NCBI RefSeq assembly: GCF_019923745.1
Contig: NZ_JAANOG010000012.1
Coordinates: 24,348-88,305, forward strand
Source: Aquirufa aurantiipilula
Lineage (GTDB): Bacteria > Bacteroidota > Bacteroidia > Cytophagales > Spirosomataceae
Direction of reading: 5' to 3'
DNA: 63,958 nucleotides
This document shows positions 10,282 through 38,914 of the stretch, piece by piece. The notes beneath the pieces are model-generated. The model did no database searches. It had not been told where the DNA came from and saw only the letters and a program-made list of their open reading frames with translations. Position numbers and translations under genes: made by a program. The first letter of the stretch is position 1, and every line of letters starts with the position of its first letter.

Positions 10282-13200
10282 ATGTGTTCTAAAAAATTAT
10301 CCGAGAGGGAAAGCGTTCGCTTTTTCTTTTCTAGTCGACAGACGTATCGTCTACTTATTTATTTTTTTCTTATGAGTTGTATGTTTTGGCCCTCAAAGGT
10401 CCAAGGCAAATCAATTTCATTTTCAACTTTTTCCTTGGCTAAAGAATGGAGGGAAAAGGATTATGCTTATTCTGAATCGAATCAAAAAAAACAATCAAGA
10501 CTGGTGGGTGGTGCTACCCGACTGAAAATCACGGGGAATCTTACACAAGTAGCAGGAGAAACACAAACCATCACCATTTCTGCTTTAGATAATCAAGGGC
10601 ATTTGGATGAAACATTTAATCAAACGTTACCACTAAAATTTTATGGAGCCAATCCTGTTGATTTTATTGATTCAACCAACTTACAATCACCTGGAGGTTC
10701 CGTTTTTAGGTATTCCATTGTTCCTAAAATAAATAATAAATCAATAGGACTAGATACTAGTGCCATTACCTTTAATCATGGTATTGCCCAAGTAGATATG
10801 CAATTGTTTAAAAATGAAGTGGCAACAATTAGGTTAGAAGATCTTGATAATACCTTAACCTGTCAAGGTTCTGACCAATTGACGGTAGATGTTAGATATG
10901 GAACTAAGCGTCAAATTAATATTCAAGGTAGATATAGGCAATATAATCGGATACCATTAGAAGGAAAGTATAAGCTGACCATTGTTGACCAGTATTATAA
11001 TGTCATCAAGGATTTCGATCCCGTTAGTAATCCGGTAGGATTAAGATTAAGCAATTTGCCTGGAACATTTTATATTCCATCCGAACAAAGAAGCATTTTA
11101 AATAGAGCAAGCGATTTTCAGCAAGGGGTGGCTGATTTACAAGCATTAGGTTTTATTTATTCGGGAAAAGTTTCGTCAGGAGGGAACCTTCATGCTTTTT
11201 TTGAAAATAATCAATTAGATTCATATTCTATTCCGATTGTATTTTATGGGGGTAAGGGACAGACCTTGCAACTTAAAGTTGGAAGTAGTAATTCGATTAC
11301 TAGAAATGCAGGATCAATAATAGCTATCTCTCTTAATTTTTTTGATGTAGATGGAAATCTTGCAGCTTATTCCTTGAATGGAACAGCTGAAAATGTGACG
11401 AGGGAAGCGGTTTTTCAAGCTAGTCCGCAAGCAGCTTTGACAGGTCAAATCCCAAAAATTGGTAATAAAAGCATAGGAGAAAAAATCGATGTATTATTTT
11501 CCCCTGGTGGAAATCAAAGTAGTAACCTAAATGCTCAATTTTATTTCCCAGAAACCCTTATTGTATCGGCCACTATGTGGTTGGCAGATGGTTCTCAAAT
11601 ATCGACTAATACGCCTACTGAAAAACTCCAAATTACCATTAATCCTGGAGTAGTAAATAAATTTCGACTCAACTTAACTAGCCCCCAAATCAGCGGTATT
11701 TCCTTTGTCAGTACCAATGAACTCACCGCTTTAGATGCATTTGATAATGTTGTGACCAGCTACAATGCAGCGATTACTAGCAATGCTGTATCCATCACTA
11801 GTTCGGGTTTGAATGGAGCCTCATCCTTGACTTTGGGTGGGAATGTATTGAATCGTTCCACGGATTTTGTCAACGGAGTGGCTAATTTAAGCAATTTGGG
11901 ACTCAAGTTTGTAGGAGATGAAGGAGCAGGAATCTATACTTTCAGAAAACAATCTGGAAATATTTCAGTGAGTGCCCCTATGACTATTTTACCAGGGGAT
12001 CGAGATAATGATAATTTAAACGATACCTATGAGCGGGGCGGAAACCTTCTAGCTTTGCAAGACATTGACAGCGATGGAGATGGTATACCTGATTATTTGG
12101 ATGCTGATTCAGATTTGGATGGAATTTCGGATAGAATGGAATTAGGCAATGATACTGACAGCGATGGTATTCCCAATTATTTAGATAGCGATTCAGACAA
12201 TGATGGCATACCAGATCAAGTAGAAAGTAATCAAGATAATGATGGAGATGGAATAGCCAATTACCAAGACTTAGATTCCGATAATGATGGAATTTTGGAT
12301 GGGAAAGAAGGACATGGTGATAAGGACCAAGATGGAAAACTCAATTTTTTGGATGCAGATTCGGATAATGATGGTATTCTAGATGTGTGGGAGGCTGTGG
12401 ATATCAATCGAGGAACCATAGATCAGAATTATGACGGGAAAGTCGATATTGGAGGAGTATTCCAAGATAGCAATGGAAATGGAATCGGGGATATGTTGGA
12501 AATAGGTATTGGAGGTAAACCTGCTAATCTACCAGATACTGACAAGGATGGTATTCCTGATTATTGGGATGAGGATTCAGATGGAGATTCATTGTTAGAT
12601 CGGATTGAGCTTACTTCCGATCCCGATGGTGATGGCATTCCCAATTACCGAGATTTGGATTCAGATGGGGATTGGTTAGGTGATAGCGATGAGCGAGATG
12701 GCGATAATGACTTAGATGGGAAGTTCAATTTCTTAGACGATGATTCGGATAATGATGGCATTCCAGATGCATGGGAAGGGAAAACCAAATGTGCAACATG
12801 TCAGTCCTTACAAGATGAAAATGGAGATGGCTGGGATGATCGAGGACAATACATGCCGGTTATTGATACAGATAAAGATGGACAAGCCGATTATTTGGAT
12901 GCAGATTCGGATAACGATACAATTCCCGATCGAGTGGAATTAGGGGCTGATTTTGATGGAGATGAATTGGCCAATTTTAGAGATTTGGATTCAGATAATG
13001 ATGGTATTTTAGACCAAATGGAAGTTGGAAGTGATGTATATCATCCTCGAGATTCAGATCGGGATGGTTTAGCAGATTTTGAAGATGCTGATTCAGACAA
13101 TGATGGTTTATTGGATATTATTGAAGTTGGAAAAGATTCAAACCATCCTGTAGACTTTGACCTGGATGGAGTTCCTGATTACATCGATGTGGATGCGGAT

Positions 13201-14826
13201 GGTGATGGTATTTTGGATGTAAATGAAGTGGGAAACAATCCCGTATCTCCTGTGGATTCCGATCAAGATGGAAGCCCAGATTATTTGGATATGGACTCAG
13301 ATAATGATGGTATTGTAGATGCTGTAGAAAAAGGTGCAAATTCTGGAAAGCCAATGGATAGTGATTTAGATACGATTCCAGACTTTAGAGATTTGGATTC
13401 TGACCAGGATGGTATTCCTGATAAATTGGAAGCAGGGAAAAATCCGAGTAATCCTGTTGATACCGATGCCGATGGAATAGCCAATTATTTGGATGTAGAT
13501 TCTGATAATGATGGACGCTGGGATAATCTAGAAGCGGGCAAGGTTACTACTAATCCATTAGATACCGATGCAGACGGATTCTTTGATTATGAAGAAATAG
13601 ACGCAGATAATGATTTTATTAAGGACAGTATTGAATATGCAGGCGACCCTATTAATCCAGTTGATACTGATGCCGATGGATCATTTGATTACTTGGATTT
13701 GGATTCAGACAATGACGGTATTCCAGATAAAATAGAAGTAGGATCTAAGCCAAGTGAACCTATAGATTCAGATTCTGATGGTAAAATGGATTTCCGAGAT
13801 GAAGATTCCGATGGAGACCAAATTTCGGATGCCATCGAAGCTGGCTTAGATCCTAGTCGCCCAATTGATACCGATGGAGATGGAATTCTCAATTATTTGG
13901 ATTTAGATTCTGATAATGATGGATATGTAGATTCACTCGAACGTGGACCACAAGGTATACCCATTGATTTTGACCAAGATGGCTTAGCTGACTACATAGA
14001 CTTAGATTCAGATAATGATAAAATTTCAGATAAAATCGAGGTTCAACCTTTTAGTTTAGGAAAGGCTACAGATACAGATAAAGACGTTAAACCTGATTAC
14101 CAGGATCTAGATTCAGACAATGATACCATACTAGATTTTATGGAATTAGGACCTAATTTCAATCTGCCAATGGATTCAGATCAAGATGGAATTCCAGATT
14201 TTAGAGATGTAGATTCTGATGGAGATGGAATACCTGATAAAATGGAAGTTGGAAAAAATCCCCTTAAACCATTGGACTCCGATAAAGATGGGATTCCTGA
14301 TTTTCAAGATATGGATTCAGATAATAATGGAGTCAATGACAGGGAAGAAGTAGGACCTGATCCAAGTAATCCTCTGGACACCGATAAGGATGGAATATTT
14401 AATTATTTGGATTCAGATGATGATGGAGATGGCTTATTGGACTATTTAGAAAATGATATCAATTTTGGAGGAATAACTGATTGTGATCATGATGGAATAC
14501 CTAATCAATTGGATAGTGATATTTGCGATACTTACCTAACAAATGGTTTTTCACCCAATGGTGATGGTACGAATGATACATTTGTTATACCAGGTATCAT
14601 GAATTTACCCAACCACCACATAAGCATTTTTAATCGCTGGGGGAATTTGGTATATGAAACGGATAATTATAAAAATGATTGGGATGGCGTGTCCAATAAT
14701 GCAGACGCCCTATTAACGATGGATGGTAAAATAGTGGATGGTATTTATTATTATATCATTGATTTTGGAAATGTTCGGCCCATGATTCAATCCTATTTGT
14801 ACATAAATCGATTGAAGAATAATTAG
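10282..14826 (+). CDS. Second giant surface protein with Ca-binding rod and T9SS type B domain
   Basis: 1,514 residues. The N-terminus has an unusually long polar stretch before a hydrophobic segment (LLIYFFLMSCMF, residues about 27-38), which probably acts as a signal peptide. Residues about 75-565 hold degenerate copies of the Ig-like pairs seen in the upstream paralogue; the best preserved is near nt 11650-12000. Residues about 570-1415 form a DSDxDGxxD rod with repeats of about 32 residues, including the AWEGKxKCxxC landmark near residue 836. The last ~97 residues are the type B sorting domain (FSPNGDGTND, FNRWGNLVYE, YYYIIDF). The ATG start is followed by MCSK, as in the next paralogue. 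The protein is likely secreted by T9SS; a role in adhesion or the surface layer is inferred. Confidence 0.9.
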   Translation: MCSKKLSERESVRFFFSSRQTYRLLIYFFLMSCMFWPSKVQGKSISFSTFSLAKEWREKDYAYSESNQKKQSRLVGGATRLKITGNLTQVAGETQTITISALDNQGHLDETFNQTLPLKFYGANPVDFIDSTNLQSPGGSVFRYSIVPKINNKSIGLDTSAITFNHGIAQVDMQLFKNEVATIRLEDLDNTLTCQGSDQLTVDVRYGTKRQINIQGRYRQYNRIPLEGKYKLTIVDQYYNVIKDFDPVSNPVGLRLSNLPGTFYIPSEQRSILNRASDFQQGVADLQALGFIYSGKVSSGGNLHAFFENNQLDSYSIPIVFYGGKGQTLQLKVGSSNSITRNAGSIIAISLNFFDVDGNLAAYSLNGTAENVTREAVFQASPQAALTGQIPKIGNKSIGEKIDVLFSPGGNQSSNLNAQFYFPETLIVSATMWLADGSQISTNTPTEKLQITINPGVVNKFRLNLTSPQISGISFVSTNELTALDAFDNVVTSYNAAITSNAVSITSSGLNGASSLTLGGNVLNRSTDFVNGVANLSNLGLKFVGDEGAGIYTFRKQSGNISVSAPMTILPGDRDNDNLNDTYERGGNLLALQDIDSDGDGIPDYLDADSDLDGISDRMELGNDTDSDGIPNYLDSDSDNDGIPDQVESNQDNDGDGIANYQDLDSDNDGILDGKEGHGDKDQDGKLNFLDADSDNDGILDVWEAVDINRGTIDQNYDGKVDIGGVFQDSNGNGIGDMLEIGIGGKPANLPDTDKDGIPDYWDEDSDGDSLLDRIELTSDPDGDGIPNYRDLDSDGDWLGDSDERDGDNDLDGKFNFLDDDSDNDGIPDAWEGKTKCATCQSLQDENGDGWDDRGQYMPVIDTDKDGQADYLDADSDNDTIPDRVELGADFDGDELANFRDLDSDNDGILDQMEVGSDVYHPRDSDRDGLADFEDADSDNDGLLDIIEVGKDSNHPVDFDLDGVPDYIDVDADGDGILDVNEVGNNPVSPVDSDQDGSPDYLDMDSDNDGIVDAVEKGANSGKPMDSDLDTIPDFRDLDSDQDGIPDKLEAGKNPSNPVDTDADGIANYLDVDSDNDGRWDNLEAGKVTTNPLDTDADGFFDYEEIDADNDFIKDSIEYAGDPINPVDTDADGSFDYLDLDSDNDGIPDKIEVGSKPSEPIDSDSDGKMDFRDEDSDGDQISDAIEAGLDPSRPIDTDGDGILNYLDLDSDNDGYVDSLERGPQGIPIDFDQDGLADYIDLDSDNDKISDKIEVQPFSLGKATDTDKDVKPDYQDLDSDNDTILDFMELGPNFNLPMDSDQDGIPDFRDVDSDGDGIPDKMEVGKNPLKPLDSDKDGIPDFQDMDSDNNGVNDREEVGPDPSNPLDTDKDGIFNYLDSDDDGDGLLDYLENDINFGGITDCDHDGIPNQLDSDICDTYLTNGFSPNGDGTNDTFVIPGIMNLPNHHISIFNRWGNLVYETDNYKNDWDGVSNNADALLTMDGKIVDGIYYYIIDFGNVRPMIQSYLYINRLKNN

Positions 14827-15061: not shown

Positions 15062-18000
15062 ATGTGTTCTAAAACTGTTGATTTTCGGCAGGAGAGATTC
15101 TCTGCTGGAATTTTCCACTTTGATCAATTTCAATCATTTTTTGTGATAGTTTTGATTTGCTTTGGGTTACTTATGCTCCCAAATGAAAGTCAAGCCTCAG
15201 CTGAAATTGGTGTCGCCGTTAAATTTAAAATTACTGGATCGGCAACTCAAACCGCAGGTGTATCCCAAACCATCACCATTACTGCTGTGGATGGCTTAGG
15301 GATTACTGATAACTCCTATGTTGGATTTCATGATTTAATATTTTCGGGAGCCAATAGTTCTATTTTAGGGAATACACCAAAGGTTAATTCTGTTGCGTTT
15401 GGAACCAGTTCTAGTATTACATTTACTAATGGAGTTGCCACGGCAACTTTGGATTTGTTTCGTGCCGAAACAGCTCTTATTCAAGTTTCAGACGGAACCT
15501 TGTCTTCCTCTGGGGCAGATGGATTAAGCATTGTAGTTGGCTTTGGAGCCTTAGGTAGATTTGATCAGGTTTTATCAAGCCCAGAGCAAATTGTTGATAG
15601 AAATTTTACTGGGACCTATACCGTAACGGCTCAAGATAGTTATGCCAATGTCATTACTAATTTTAATTCAGCCATTACACCTTTAACGGTCATAGGGAAT
15701 AGTAGTTATGCTGCAGGTACATTTACCTTAGGTTATGGAGGGAATGTGTTAAATCGTGCAAGTGATTTTGTCAATGGAGTGGCCAATTTGCAAGCCATTG
15801 GAATTAAGTATTCAGGAACTACCAACGCTTCAGGTAACATTTTGATTCGAAATGCTGATTTAACAATTATCTCTCCTATTTCTGCAAACATTCGAGGAGG
15901 AAATGCCGTTCGATTAGCAATAACAGGTGGAACCACGAGAGTAGCTGGAACTAGTTCTGCCGTTACCATAACAGCATTAGATACCTATGGTAATACTTCT
16001 TATGAATATACAGGTATCAAATCTTTGCTCTTTTCAGGAGCAAATACGTCGACAAGTGGAAATATTCCACGTATATCTACTACCAACTTTGGAACAAATA
16101 CCAATTTAACGTTCTCTGCTGGTTTTGTAACTAGCACTATGACCTTGTTTAAAGTAGAAAATCCTACTATTTCAGTAAGTGATGGAACACTTTCTTCTTC
16201 TGGATCAAGTAATTTGACAGTAACGGTTAATCCAGCCGTTTTAAATAAATTCGAGGTAGTCATTCAAAATCCTCAACAAAGCGAACGAAATTTGGCGGGT
16301 GTAAATACCGTAACAGCACAGGATCTGTATAACAATACGGTTACCTCATTTAATGCAGCTACTAATAATGTAACTGTTTCAACGACCTTATCGGGTAGTA
16401 TTACGGGACTTTCAGGTGGAAATAAACTAAACTCTGCATCCGATTTTGTAAATGGAATAGCTAATTTGACAACCCTAGGGATGATTTACTTAGGTGCAGA
16501 AGGTTCGGGTACATTTACTTTTAGAGCCAATACAGGACCTACGGGTACTAGTCAGATTATAGAAACTGCATTTGCAGATGATGATAGTGATGGGATACCA
16601 AATTCCATGGAATGTTTCGGAACATCTTCGTTATTAGGCACTTGTGCAGATTTTGATGGGGATGGACGGATGAATTCTCGTGATACTGATTCAGATAATG
16701 ATGGAATCAATGATTCCTTAGAAAGAAATATGGATTCGGATGGGGATCGACAAGCCAACTATTTAGATTTGGATTCAGATAATGATGGAATACCGGATGC
16801 CACAGAAGGGATTCAGGATACGGATGGAGATGGAACCCCCAATTACATTGACCTTGATTCCGATGGCGATGGCTTGATGGATGCTTGGGAGGCTAGTGAT
16901 AATGCTCGAGGAACTGTAGATCAGAATTATGATGGGAAAATTGATATGAATGGAGTTTTTGCTGATGTTAATGCCAATGGATTAGCTGATGTATTGGAAA
17001 CCATTTTGAGCGGGAAAGTATTGCCATTACCTGATACAGACCGAGATGGGACAAAGGATTATGTTGATACAGATTCAGATAATGATGGGATTTCAGATAA
17101 GCTTGAGGGCAGTTCAGACCCCGACAAAGATGCATTTCCCAATTACCGCGATTTAGATTCGGATGGGGATTGGTTGGGAGATCAAGATGAAAGAAATGTG
17201 GATAATGATGGAGATGGAGTTAGTAATTATCTAGATGCAGATTCAGACGGAGATGGAATTCCAGATGCCTGGGAAGGAAAAAATAAATGTGCCACCTGTA
17301 CAACTTTGAAAGATGATTGGAATGATGGTTGGGACGATCGAGGTCAATATGTGCTTGTCATAGATACAGATAAAGACGGTAGTTCCGATTTTTTGGATTT
17401 AGATTCTGATAATGATTGCCTTCCCGATGCTGTGGAATTGGGAGATGATTTGGATGGTGATGAACTTGCCAATTTTCGGGATTTGGATTCAGATAACGAT
17501 GGAATAGGGGATAGCATAGAAGCTGTTTTTTGTACTAAGCCTGTTGATTCAGACAAAGACGGTAAAGCTGATTTTGAGGATGCTGATTCAGATAATGATT
17601 TGATCCCTGATAAAATTGAGGTGGGGTCTAATCCTGCAAAACCCCTGGATTCAGATGGGGATGGATTAGTAGATTATCAAGATGTTGATAGTGATGGAGA
17701 TGGATTATTGGATTCTGCGGAGGCAGGAAAAGAGGTGAATAATCCTTTGGATTCAGATTCGGATGGTATTTTGGATTTTAGAGATACTGACTCCGACAAT
17801 GATACCATATTAGATAAAATAGAAGTGGGGGCCAATACGCTAAAACCATTGGATTCTGATAATGATGGAATTTTTGATCATTTAGATATTGATTCAGATA
17901 ATGACAGTATTGCTGATAAATTGGAAGCAGGTACAGACCCTAGCATTCCTGTTGATACGGATGCAGATGGTCAACGAGATTACGTGGATACTGATTCGGA

Positions 18001-19219
18001 TGCAGATGCTATTCCAGATCAAATTGAAATGGGAGCTGATCTAACAAAACCACAGGATACAGATGGAGATGGCAAATGGGATTTTCGTGATACGGATTCT
18101 GACAATGACGGAATTTTAGATTTAATAGAAGCGGGTCAAAATCCCAATAAACCGATTGATTCTGATGGAGATATTATAGCTGACTTCATGGATATAGATT
18201 CAGATAATGATAGTATTTTAGATAAAATAGAGGCAGGTTCAGATTCGGCAAAACCAAGGGATACCGACCTTGATGCTAAGCCAGATTATATTGATTCTGA
18301 CTCCGATAATGATGGATTATTGGATTCATTAGAAGTGGGAACCAATAGTAGCATTCCATTAGATACCGATCAAGATGGCGTGGCTAATTATCGCGATTTG
18401 GATTCAGATAATGACGGTTTATTGGACAAATTAGAAGCCGGGAATGACCTTTCCAAGCCCTTGGATACGGATAAGGATGGATTTGCTGATTATATAGACA
18501 TCGATTCAGATAATGATTCTATGGCGGACCGATTGGAAGCGGGTGCTGATTTTAATCGACCTGTAAATACCGACAGAGATGCATTACCCGATTATCGGGA
18601 TACGGATTCCGATAATGATTTGATTCCGGATAAGGTAGAAGTAGGTTCTGATCCGACTAAACCTATGGATTCTGACCGAGATGGCATATTTGATTATCAA
18701 GATGTGGATTCCGACAATAATGGGATATTAGATGCCACAGAATTAGGACTAGATGGTAATAATCCCATAGATACCGACAAAAATGGAATTCCAGATTACC
18801 GTGATTTGGACAATGATGGAGATGGAATCAGTGATCTACTAGAATTGGATGTGAATTATGGAGGTTTGGCAGATTGCGACAATGACGGCATCAGTAATAT
18901 GCAGGATAAGGATGTTTGTGAGCCCTTTGCCCCTCAGGGGATTTCTCCTAATGGAGATGGTAAAAACGATAAATTGATTATTCCTGGATTATTAAGTTTT
19001 CCCAAACATCACATTTCAGTCTTTAATCGAGCTGGTTCGATCATTTTTGAATCGGACAACTATAAAAATGATTGGGGAGGAGAATTGAATTTTGTGAGTG
19101 GTCAATCGAACTCATCTCAGCTTGTTCCTGATGGGGTTTATTATTATGTCGTGGACTTTGCAGGAGTGAAGCCCTCCATTCAATCCTTTTTATATGTCAA
19201 TCGATTAAACCTGAAATAA
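15062..19219 (+). CDS. Third giant surface protein with Ca-binding rod and T9SS type B domain
   Basis: 1,385 residues and a paralogue of the two preceding genes. It starts MCSK and has a hydrophobic signal segment near residues 28-41 (FFVIVLICFGLLML). Residues about 50-495 contain two clear Ig-like pairs with TQTAGVSQTITITAVD and VTAQDLYNNTVTSF motifs. Residues about 500-1285 form the DSDNDGIxD rod, with the CxxC landmark near residue 742. The last 97 residues are the gliding-motility-associated sorting domain (GISPNGDGKND, FNRAGSIIFES, YYYVVDF). In the sorting domain the usual NRWGN is NRAGS, a mild divergence. Intergenic spacing and separate terminators argue for three independent units rather than an operon. 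Confidence 0.9.
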   Translation: MCSKTVDFRQERFSAGIFHFDQFQSFFVIVLICFGLLMLPNESQASAEIGVAVKFKITGSATQTAGVSQTITITAVDGLGITDNSYVGFHDLIFSGANSSILGNTPKVNSVAFGTSSSITFTNGVATATLDLFRAETALIQVSDGTLSSSGADGLSIVVGFGALGRFDQVLSSPEQIVDRNFTGTYTVTAQDSYANVITNFNSAITPLTVIGNSSYAAGTFTLGYGGNVLNRASDFVNGVANLQAIGIKYSGTTNASGNILIRNADLTIISPISANIRGGNAVRLAITGGTTRVAGTSSAVTITALDTYGNTSYEYTGIKSLLFSGANTSTSGNIPRISTTNFGTNTNLTFSAGFVTSTMTLFKVENPTISVSDGTLSSSGSSNLTVTVNPAVLNKFEVVIQNPQQSERNLAGVNTVTAQDLYNNTVTSFNAATNNVTVSTTLSGSITGLSGGNKLNSASDFVNGIANLTTLGMIYLGAEGSGTFTFRANTGPTGTSQIIETAFADDDSDGIPNSMECFGTSSLLGTCADFDGDGRMNSRDTDSDNDGINDSLERNMDSDGDRQANYLDLDSDNDGIPDATEGIQDTDGDGTPNYIDLDSDGDGLMDAWEASDNARGTVDQNYDGKIDMNGVFADVNANGLADVLETILSGKVLPLPDTDRDGTKDYVDTDSDNDGISDKLEGSSDPDKDAFPNYRDLDSDGDWLGDQDERNVDNDGDGVSNYLDADSDGDGIPDAWEGKNKCATCTTLKDDWNDGWDDRGQYVLVIDTDKDGSSDFLDLDSDNDCLPDAVELGDDLDGDELANFRDLDSDNDGIGDSIEAVFCTKPVDSDKDGKADFEDADSDNDLIPDKIEVGSNPAKPLDSDGDGLVDYQDVDSDGDGLLDSAEAGKEVNNPLDSDSDGILDFRDTDSDNDTILDKIEVGANTLKPLDSDNDGIFDHLDIDSDNDSIADKLEAGTDPSIPVDTDADGQRDYVDTDSDADAIPDQIEMGADLTKPQDTDGDGKWDFRDTDSDNDGILDLIEAGQNPNKPIDSDGDIIADFMDIDSDNDSILDKIEAGSDSAKPRDTDLDAKPDYIDSDSDNDGLLDSLEVGTNSSIPLDTDQDGVANYRDLDSDNDGLLDKLEAGNDLSKPLDTDKDGFADYIDIDSDNDSMADRLEAGADFNRPVNTDRDALPDYRDTDSDNDLIPDKVEVGSDPTKPMDSDRDGIFDYQDVDSDNNGILDATELGLDGNNPIDTDKNGIPDYRDLDNDGDGISDLLELDVNYGGLADCDNDGISNMQDKDVCEPFAPQGISPNGDGKNDKLIIPGLLSFPKHHISVFNRAGSIIFESDNYKNDWGGELNFVSGQSNSSQLVPDGVYYYVVDFAGVKPSIQSFLYVNRLNLK

Positions 19220-21965: not shown

Positions 21966-22094
21966 CCAGAGATTTTTTTATTGTGTTGGGTTTTTGGAGT
22001 AGTAAAGTACGAATTATTGTTTCAAGATAAATAGGTTTCCAATCAAATATTATCAAGATTTTTGTTCTAAATTGATTAATTTGCAAGCCTATTT

Positions 22095-22166
22095 GGCGCC
22101 ATAGTTCAACGGATAGAATAGACGTTTCCTAAACGTTAGATGTGGGTTCGATTCCCGCTGGGGCCA
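22095..22166 (+). tRNA. tRNA-Arg (CCT anticodon) with an acceptor-stem mismatch
   Basis: A full cloverleaf can be drawn: D-stem GTTC/GAAT, anticodon stem GACGT/ACGTT with loop TTCCTAA, T-stem GTGGG/CCCGC with loop TTCGATT. The acceptor arms are GGCGCCA and TGGGGCC, leaving a G-G mismatch at the fourth pair. CCA is not encoded. The 3' part of this tRNA is repeated four more times downstream. Confidence 0.85.
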
Positions 22167-22727
22167 CAATGAAATGATAAATTATAGGTTATAATTTATC
22201 AATGGGGTTTGAGTCCAATTCCTCATTTTAATCAATTTTCTTTCCTAAACGTTAGATGTGCCGGGGTCGCGTTCGACTCGATTCCCGCTGGGGCCACAAT
22301 GAAATGATAAATTATAGGTTATAATTTATCAATGGGGTTTGAGTCCAATTCCTCATTTTAATCAATTCTCTTTCCTAAACGTTTGATGTGCCGGGGTCGC
22401 GTTCGACTCGATTCCCGCTGGGGCCACACAGAAATGATAAATTATAGGTTATAATTTATAAATGGGGTATTAGTACCATACTTCCATCTAATCAGGTTTA
22501 TTTTCTAAACGTTTGATGTGCCGGGGTCGCGTTCGACTCGATTCCCGCTGGGGCCACACAGAAATGATAAATTATAGGTTATAATTTATAAATGGGGTAT
22601 TAGTACCATACTTCCATCTAATCAGGTTTATTTTCTAAACGTTTGATGTGCCGGGGTCGCGTTCGACTCGATTCCCGCTGGGGCCACAATGAAATGATAA
22701 ATTATAGGTTATAATTTATAAATGGGG
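22167..22727 (+). repeat. 130-bp tandem array carrying tRNA-Arg 3' ends
   Basis: The acceptor end GGGCCACA occurs at 22161 (the intact tRNA), 22291, 22421, 22551 and 22681, which is exactly 130 bp each time. Each unit contains a palindrome (AAATTATA, 3 nt, TATAATTT), a variable stretch of about 40 bp, and the tRNA from the anticodon loop to the 3' end. In all four extra copies the T-arm sequence GGTTC is replaced by a 19-nt segment able to form the hairpin GGGTCG-CGTT-CGACTC. Units 1-2 resemble each other, and units 3-4 are identical over 130 bp. The copies start at 22241, 22371, 22501 and 22631; none has a tRNA 5' half. Confidence 0.9.
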
Positions 22728-22770
22728 GTAATTCAATACTACATTCTACATTTTCCATTCTACAATTAAC

Positions 22771-23310
22771 GGTTAATCCTACGAAAGATGGGAACGTAGC
22801 ATGAGCGAAGCGGAAGGCGGATATTTGACCCAGTGCGTGGGCCTGAGTGTAAACGTCAAAGATTAAAGCCGTATGCGGAGTGAACATCGGTTCCGCAAAG
22901 CGGAATTCGTATTGGATTAACCGAAACCATCCTGTTTTTTTGTTTCTTTTTTTTTTAAAAGAAATACCAAAGTAATGATCTTAAAGTAGTGAGTGATTAA
23001 AGCTGTAGAAGATTAACTTGATTAAGCATAGATTATTGCGGATTATCTTTTTTTGAAAAAAAAGAAACAAAAAAACTTGTTTTTTGTCGTTCCGCCAAGG
23101 CGAATTCTGCTACGCAGAATCGTGATTCTCTCCGCTATCGCCTATACTTTTGACGCGGACGCGCATCGCTTATGCGCAAGGTCAAAACCTCGTCTACCGC
23201 TGCGTTCATCACATTTCGCAGGGCTGAACGACGGGATTAAATATGCAAAATTCTACATACTATCTACATTTTACATTGAAAGGTTAATCCTACGAAAGAT
23301 GGGAACGGAG
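22771..23310. repeat. Inverted pair of diverged structured elements plus a third fragment
   Basis: A segment on the plus strand (22771 to about 22956) has a diverged counterpart in inverse orientation (about 23260 back to 23047). Shared landmarks are AGCGGxAGxCG, TTTTGACC/ATTTGACC, a GTCAAA block, a small palindrome before GAATTCG, and a final TTTTTTTGTTTCTTTTTT tract. The two T tracts face each other across about 90 bp. A third copy of the start motif (TTAATCCTACGAAAGATGGG) lies at 23284-23303 in direct orientation. No convincing gene lies in this stretch. It resembles a non-autonomous, MITE-like insertion, but no family was recognised. Confidence 0.6.
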
Positions 23311-23348
23311 CTTTTTTTGATTTATCATTTTACCGCAAAATTCTTGCT

Positions 23349-38721: not shown

Positions 38722-38731
38722 GGATTTATCT

Positions 38732-38914
38732 TTGAAGTTTTATCGTTGAAGTATCTCTTTAAGTCTTACCCTTGTGTTTTGTAGTTGAGATTTATCCTTG
38801 AGATTTATCGTTGTGGTTTGTCCTTGAGATTTATTGTTGAGGTTTGACGTTGTGGTTTGTCGGTGAGGTTTATCGTTTAGGTTTGACGTTAAGGTTTGTC
38901 GTAGAGATTTGTCA
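38732..38914 (+). repeat. 13-bp tandem array, about 14 units
   Basis: Thirteen units start every 13 bp from 38746 to 38902, with consensus TTGAGGTTTGTCG, preceded by one 14-bp unit at 38732. Conserved cores are TTGAG/TTGTG and TTTATC/TTTGTC; units differ by 1-5 bases. The period is not a multiple of three and no gene spans it, so it is non-coding. It fills most of the 352-bp gap between DUF4835 and the Fic gene. Confidence 0.9.

Follow-up and report, generated by a model that had tools for sequence, protein, structure and literature searches.

A tandem array of tRNA-Arg 3' halves in Aquirufa aurantiipilula is a tRNA-linked repeat carrying a hairpin of a dispersed mini-hairpin family

We analysed a 63,958-nt stretch of the genome of Aquirufa aurantiipilula (contig NZ_JAANOG010000012.1, positions 24,348 to 88,305; hereafter the window), in which an intact tRNA-Arg(CCT) gene is followed by tandem 130-bp units, each with a copy of the tRNA 3' half that bears a 17-nt hairpin, hereafter the module, in its T arm (Table 1). 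The hairpin belongs to a dispersed family of mini-hairpins, and the array is a variant of known tRNA-linked repeats. With a probability of about 0.6, we read the array as tandemly amplified tRNA debris, probably derived from integration (a dead tRNA satellite), that carries a dispersed, precisely inserting mini-hairpin.

The array is real. Firstly, GGGGCCACA, at the acceptor end, lies at 22160, 22290, 22420, 22550 and 22680, in exact 130-bp steps, and is absent from the rest of the window on both strands. Equally spaced runs of five identical 9-mers number 34 in the real window and 0 in twenty mononucleotide shuffles, and Tandem Repeats Finder (TRF) reports a tandem repeat at 22148-22727 (period 130, 4.5 copies, 95% matches). 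Secondly, ARAGORN and Rfam call a single intact tRNA-Arg(CCT) and call no tRNA in the four downstream copies, which do not have the complete cloverleaf, acceptor stem and T arm of a functional tRNA. Thirdly, the units share one build: a 76-bp AT-rich spacer, containing the palindrome ATAAATTATAGGTTATAATTTAT, precedes a tRNA 3' half that starts at the anticodon loop (TTTCCTAAACG or TTTTCTAAACG) and has no 5' half; the portion of the tRNA between the anticodon loop and the 3' terminus is thus repeated downstream, as in attachment-site repeats. In the copies, GGTTC of the tRNA is exchanged for the 19-nt CCGGGGTCGCGTTCGACTC, which consists of the module CCGGGGTCGCGTTCGAC (CCGGG, a 4-bp stem and a CGNN loop) and TC, a net gain of 14 nt. 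Units 1 and 2 agree at 128/130 positions, units 3 and 4 at 130/130, and members of different pairs at 113/130. The spacer after the intact tRNA differs by a single base from the spacer after unit 1, so that the tRNA's own 3' half can be regarded as copy zero. A sequence-only reading of the window had described the five regularly spaced acceptor ends, the four copies without a 5' half, their common hairpin-forming T-arm replacement, the spacer palindrome and the paired units, and position searches, TRF, ARAGORN, Rfam and unit comparison bear out all of these. The acceptor stem of the intact tRNA (GGCGCCA / TGGGGCC) has a G-G mismatch at position 4, which is retained in the other Aquirufa tRNA-Arg(CCT) genes read (GGCGCTG / CGGGGCC).

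An assembly artefact, which that reading had itself named as a possible undoing, or a chance repeat is so improbable as to be negligible. The window genome is a draft assembly of 70 contigs (the window lies on contig C3), which is what could suggest an error, but independent isolates and other Aquirufa species have such units in differing lengths and numbers, shuffles give none, and genomes of one or two contigs also contain them, with five-unit arrays in G113 (tRNA-Arg) and G140 (tRNA-Thr) and a single unit in G007.

The sequence-only reading had looked to related genomes for the unit and for changes in its copy number, and both were found. The 130-bp unit matched the window genome and 22 of 98 relatives, all of them Aquirufa; the one-genome-per-species scan also matched two Dyadobacter strains and a Flavobacterium-labelled bin whose contig looks like Aquirufa. 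Core matches in Ancylobacter and a Bryobacterales bin (L053, L062) are coding-like by eye and were judged to be chance. A phage or plasmid source of the unit was rejected, as 50,697 phage records and 72,556 plasmid records gave no match and the exact core is absent from viral contigs. We scanned a family group of 222 genomes, in which NCBI places Dyadobacter in Spirosomataceae and Aquirufa in Flectobacillaceae, and which was sampled with 38 Aquirufa and 48 Dyadobacter genomes. A looser stem-loop and T-loop pattern, GTCGNNNNCGACTCGATTC, matched 29 of the 222: 23 of the 38 Aquirufa, 3 Dyadobacter and 3 with coding-like matches; those in G184, G187 and G245, coding-like by eye, were attributed to chance. 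The 15 Aquirufa genomes with no pattern match include some incomplete ones, and at one Aquirufa tRNA-Arg(CCT) locus (L020) no unit was seen. The Aquirufa units read, whose loci were fetched by similarity so that strongly decayed units may be missing, adjoin two tRNA-Arg genes, CCT and CCG, on the 3' side. They differ in length (about 80, 130 and 150 bp, among other values) and, between species, in copy number; their tRNA-derived flanks track the local tRNA, while the module stays constant. At one locus (L021 3150-3720, G024:C4) the tRNA-Arg(CCT) has been turned around with respect to its module-bearing units, so that these are found upstream of it on the opposite strand.

The nature of the copies is plainest in Dyadobacter, where many are nearly whole tRNA-Arg(CCT) genes and others start near the anticodon. 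They are found either downstream of the gene, in most cases with what by eye resembles a terminator hairpin, or immediately upstream. Among 23 tRNA-Arg(CCT) regions picked for long matches, pseudo-copies are present in 21 and an upstream copy in 14, with one intact tRNA in each region. These are clearly dead tRNA copies. The sequence-only reading had taken the four copies as one family and not decayed tRNAs, which stands for the hairpin and fails for the copies; with a single window available, the T-arm insert could not be seen as a dispersed module. Short inserts interrupt the T, anticodon and D loops of the Dyadobacter copies. The usual T-loop insert consists of CCGGG, four stem bases, CGNN and four complementary bases. 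In an unselected listing of the 39 T-loop inserts that a script could bound (unboundable ones being left out), the net length is 16 nt in 31, 32 nt in four, 15 nt in two, 31 nt in one and 10 nt in one; in two rows of this listing the stem has a single mismatch (GGCG/CGAC), in two others the script set the register wrongly, and one insert is the 10-nt remnant. Stems occur as GTCG/CGAC, GTTG/CAAC, GGCG/CGCC, GCCG/CGGC, GGTG/CACC, TTCG/CGAA and CGGC/GCCG, that is, with compensating changes, and GGCG/CGAC represents an intermediate. The 100% pairing and the covariation score of a 24-row alignment (A1) are not independent evidence, because its rows were mostly preselected for a perfect stem. In the anticodon loop the insert is the module in the opposite orientation, and reversed inserts of similar build gave 10 matches in D loops.

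The module extends beyond tRNA-Arg(CCT). We searched for two forms of it, A (CCGGGGTCGCGNNCGAC) and B (CCGGGCGGCCGGTGCCG), with reversed patterns as controls. Form A gave 58 matches in 17 of the 48 Dyadobacter genomes, some of them coding-like, against one control match (G147). Form B was found in 68 of the 222 family-group genomes, with up to 27 copies, and all reversed-pattern controls gave 0. Form A-pattern matches with the loop CGCA (e.g. L145, L156, L160, L166, L169) resemble coding DNA and were rejected, and form B matches outside the family group (6 of 390 genomes), in GC-rich or coding-like contexts by eye, were not counted. Form B sits in the T loops of copies adjoining intact tRNA-Thr(GGT), tRNA-Arg(ACG) and tRNA-Lys genes, and G140 has its five units, of 96 bp, beside tRNA-Thr; an array of tRNA-like units with form A modules and further stacks of GC-rich inserts lies beside an intact tRNA-Met(CAT) (L219, G123:C1:831700-833300). 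Outside tRNA context, eight loci were scanned for transposase domains: at seven of them form B lies in or at pieces of open reading frames (ORFs) with transposase-type Pfam matches, part of which fall below the curated cut-off, and L187 gave no match. At L193 the reading frame breaks within an rve_3 domain at the module. Form A was also found in AT-rich stretches without a 60-amino-acid open frame (L154, L165). In G140, a 14-bp tandem repeat (CCGGGTCGCGTAGA) has expanded next to a module within tRNA-like sequence, close to an intact tRNA-His (L152, C2 near 4324948).

Empty and filled sites could be compared at a palindrome resembling a miniature inverted-repeat transposable element (MITE). The site CATGCTGACGAAG^GAAGCATCTT has no insert in 144 of 150 copies among the matches listed. 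When inserts of any length from 2 to 30 nt were allowed in the scan of the 222 genomes, all 17 filled copies (17/17) hold exactly 16 nt, eight of form B and nine with the stem CCGC/GCGG; in G237, two of nine inserts begin with CCGTG and not CCGGG. At L204 one arm of the palindrome is empty and the other holds the same 16 nt. The base to the left of form B is G in 30 of 32 contexts, 18 of which are T loops; only this left-hand preference counts, because the right-hand G belonged to the search pattern. Hence the same hairpin is found at unrelated sites with empty counterparts in the relatives of Aquirufa, and not within Aquirufa. We tentatively suggest that Dyadobacter and its kin harbour a 16-nt mobile element defined by shape and not by sequence (a CCGGG tag, a 4-bp stem of free sequence and a CGNN loop), which would insert precisely and without target duplication beside a G where the DNA can form hairpins, for instance in tRNA T loops, moved by a putative hairpin-reading enzyme, and which in Aquirufa may now be a conserved part of a tRNA-linked array. 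The Y1/RAYT transposase (RAYT, REP-associated tyrosine transposase; REP, repetitive extragenic palindromic), considered as a mover, showed no clear association with the copies: Y1 (PF01797) matches averaged 3.9 in 10 form B-rich genomes (two without any) and 2.1 in 12 form B-free genomes (10 with some).

Several observations weigh against reading the Aquirufa array as tRNA debris with a precisely inserting module. The net T-arm insert is +14 in the window and +14 or +15 in the other Aquirufa read, not +16. The 17 filled MITE-like copies are confined to five genomes of one genus; they may therefore go back to two or a few insertions multiplied later, and probably represent few independent events. 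No mobilising enzyme was found for the module, and the integrase domain PF00589 has zero matches on the window's contig. Scanning the window genome with a covariance model gave five modules, every one of them in a tRNA-Arg unit, to which a sixth, degenerate one, missed by the model, can be added beside the fifth (contig C41 near 244116); mobility is therefore not seen in Aquirufa. Moreover, the module hardly varies there: over 45 distinct Aquirufa units, the mean entropy of 15 module positions is 0.07 bit, compared with 1.42 and 1.05 bit at the two loop bases and 1.74 bit in the spacers. Over 22 scored positions, 36 of 45 tRNA-context units, from loci fetched by similarity, have no substitution, six have one and three have two, and allowing six substitutions instead of three yielded zero additional tRNA-linked units in Aquirufa. 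Judged from these sequences, such near-invariance appears to exceed what a purely neutral relic would show, and since the two loop bases do vary, a selected role in Aquirufa is possible.

The same constancy favours a functional RNA locus, in which the units would be co-transcribed with the tRNA to serve as decoys resembling tRNA or as small RNAs, with selection maintaining the hairpin, an explanation we hold to be quite improbable. It would fit the upstream copies in the Dyadobacter regions, between which and the tRNA no terminator is seen by eye, and the strong folding of two units: in G113 the T-loop and anticodon-loop inserts pair into a hairpin of about 30 bp (-62 kcal/mol, z-score -7.6), and the Leaf189 unit forms a weaker one (-44.1 kcal/mol, z -3.65). 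E. coli rtT RNA is a precedent (PMC2965389). However, the folding of four Aquirufa units is no stronger than that of shuffled sequence (z +0.93, -0.94, -0.82 and -0.19), for which reason a functional tRNA-like RNA in Aquirufa was rejected, and two CY343 units likewise fold like shuffles (z -1.10 and +0.40). The left arm of the Dyadobacter hairpin is absent from the Aquirufa units read, 15 of the 38 Aquirufa genomes, some incomplete, give no match to the pattern, and L020 shows no unit. The proposal of the sequence-only reading that an RNA array exposes tRNA-like ends to RNase Z or the CCA-adding enzyme thus finds no support here.

Evidence for integration comes from the second Aquirufa locus, tRNA-Arg(CCG), on contig C41 of the window genome. 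An ORF of 508 amino acids with a tyrosine-recombinase domain, where PF00589 does match, adjoins the tRNA 3' end, and 27 kb beyond the tRNA lie one plain 3'-half copy and two hairpin-bearing copies. This 27-kb stretch (C41:244100-271500, L035/L036), which also contains an ORF resembling a fusion of ParB and a DNA methyltransferase by eye, is likely an integrative element. Module-free 3'-half copies occur at C41:244558 and at L034. A breakpoint at the anticodon loop is typical of integration that targets tRNA genes. The sequence-only reading had proposed integration at an attachment site followed by tandem duplication; the breakpoint and the recombinase at the sister locus speak for it, and the lack of an integrase match on the window's contig speaks against it.

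A different use of the same evidence would make the units attachment-site scars of serial integrative elements, with the 17-nt block as an element-side integrase arm adjoining a crossover in the T loop and not a mobile module. We regard this as unlikely. The recombinase beside tRNA-Arg(CCG) with its repeats 27 kb away, two Aquirufa units cut inside the T loop directly after CGATT (L019, L034) and the parallel of the Dehalococcoides ssrA repeats (excerpts of PMC3146451) are in its favour. Yet the sequence to the left of the block is the local tRNA again and not element DNA; the block lies at three different T-arm offsets and is reversed in the anticodon loop; it, or form B, is a 16-nt insert in MITE-like repeats and transposase genes; its stem varies with compensation; and the window's contig has no integrase match.

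We return to amplified, probably integration-derived tRNA debris. From the anticodon-loop breakpoint and from the recombinase and copies at the CCG locus, we infer three steps. Firstly, the 3' half of a tRNA-Arg would have been duplicated with a breakpoint in the anticodon loop, as in tRNA-targeting integration and as the CCG locus supports, giving an intact gene followed by a 3'-half copy. Secondly, as comparison of relatives rather than any observed movement suggests, the 17-nt GC-rich mini-hairpin CCGGG-N4-CGNN-N4' would have entered the T loop of the copy; members of its family appear to insert precisely, usually adding a net 16 nt, and in related bacteria their targets are the loops of tRNA copies, palindromes of the MITE-like kind, apparently intergenic DNA that is AT-rich, and transposase genes. 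The module breaks the T arm and is therefore presumably tolerated only by extra tRNA copies. Its mobility would most likely be provided in trans, by a putative hairpin-reading recombinase. Thirdly, the 130-bp unit may have been amplified in tandem and homogenised by unequal recombination, the tRNA-derived flanks meanwhile remaining similar to the local tRNA; the pairing of units 1-2 and 3-4 fits unequal exchange.

The closest known arrangement is that of the E. coli tyrT repeats and rtT RNA, with a unit of about 178 bp that includes 19 tRNA bases. In both, a tRNA gene is followed by a tandem series of units that each repeat the tRNA 3' end; the tRNA is a different one, and we know of no T-loop hairpin module in the E. 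coli repeats. The Rfam family RtT has no match at the gathering threshold anywhere in the window, and none in 22000-22900 at E-values up to 10. In Salmonella, excerpts of one paper give rtT RNA as a 175-bp variable-number repeat (PMC2658671). Excerpts on Dehalococcoides genomic islands describe tandem direct repeats of the ssrA 3' end in which a conserved motif adjoins the insertion point in the T loop (PMC3146451), likewise many copies of an RNA-gene 3' end behind an intact gene; in those excerpts the repeats flank gene-bearing islands with a serine recombinase, whereas the array here has 76-bp spacers only and its motif is also found away from tRNAs. Mitochondrial hairpin elements (Allomyces double-hairpin elements, sponge repetitive hairpin elements, yeast GC clusters) are also short hairpins that, in the excerpts we rely on, apparently invade intergenic DNA and RNA genes by an unproven mechanism (PMC2800124, PMC4478555). 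The module differs from them in being bacterial, in its 16-17 nt (against 42 nt for GC42, for example), in its free stem sequence with a fixed CCGGG tag and CG in the loop, and in that no AG target duplication was seen. REP elements combine a short palindrome with a fixed tag and also lie inside genes, and part of the source puts them at 20-40 bp with GTAG or CGTC tags (PMC3733652); the module has the tag CCGGG and a length of 16-17 and neither of those tags, and a term search of that paper's main text found neither Spirosoma nor CCGG. Integron attC sites were rejected, as no consistent core triplets were seen by eye and no cassettes are present. Among the titles and abstract openings listed by our literature searches, we found no description of the array or of the mini-hairpin family.

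If mobile, the module would be among the smallest mobile DNA units and would give the mitochondrial hairpin elements, for which the mechanism is unsolved, a bacterial counterpart, open to tests in cultivable bacteria that we do not know as pathogens. Arrays of dead tRNA-like copies can mimic a designed RNA system, and the module's near-invariance in Aquirufa suggests that debris may have been put to use. The module may also serve annotators as a marker of false tRNA genes: at L196 1450-1538 (G151:C1 near 3497274), a tRNA-Thr copy that bears the module and adjoins the intact tRNA-Thr at 1571-1643 is reported as a gene by ARAGORN.

Table 1. Coordinates of the array features in the window
Feature	Position	Strand	Basis
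Intact tRNA-Arg(CCT)	22095..22167	+	ARAGORN; Rfam RF00005, 59.3 bits
Unit 1: 76-bp AT-rich spacer and module-bearing tRNA 3' half	22168..22297	+	sequence, unit comparison
Unit 2	22298..22427	+	128/130 identity with unit 1
Unit 3	22428..22557	+	113/130 against units 1 and 2
Unit 4	22558..22687	+	identical with unit 3
Partial fifth unit, spacer start only	22688..22727	+	TRF array end; sequence
Mini-hairpin module CCGGG-GTCG-CGTT-CGAC, unit 1	22261..22277	+	hairpin scan; covariance model
Mini-hairpin module, unit 2	22391..22407	+	hairpin scan; covariance model
Mini-hairpin module, unit 3	22521..22537	+	hairpin scan; covariance model
Mini-hairpin module, unit 4	22651..22667	+	hairpin scan; covariance model
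AT-rich spacer palindrome, recurring behind each copy	22177..22199	not applicable	sequence

Other repeats and long proteins were seen in the window. A repeat beginning with TTAATCCTACGAAAGATGGGAACG lies at 22765-22860 and 23280-23320; it is also present behind tRNA-Arg in relatives and resembles a dispersed Aquirufa repeat. At 38723-38913 there is a 13-bp tandem repeat (TTTGTCGTTGAGG and variants, about 10-14 copies). Two adjacent genes at 10282-14826 and 15062-19219 encode very long proteins, of 1514 and 1385 amino acids, with repeats rich in DxDxDG by eye.
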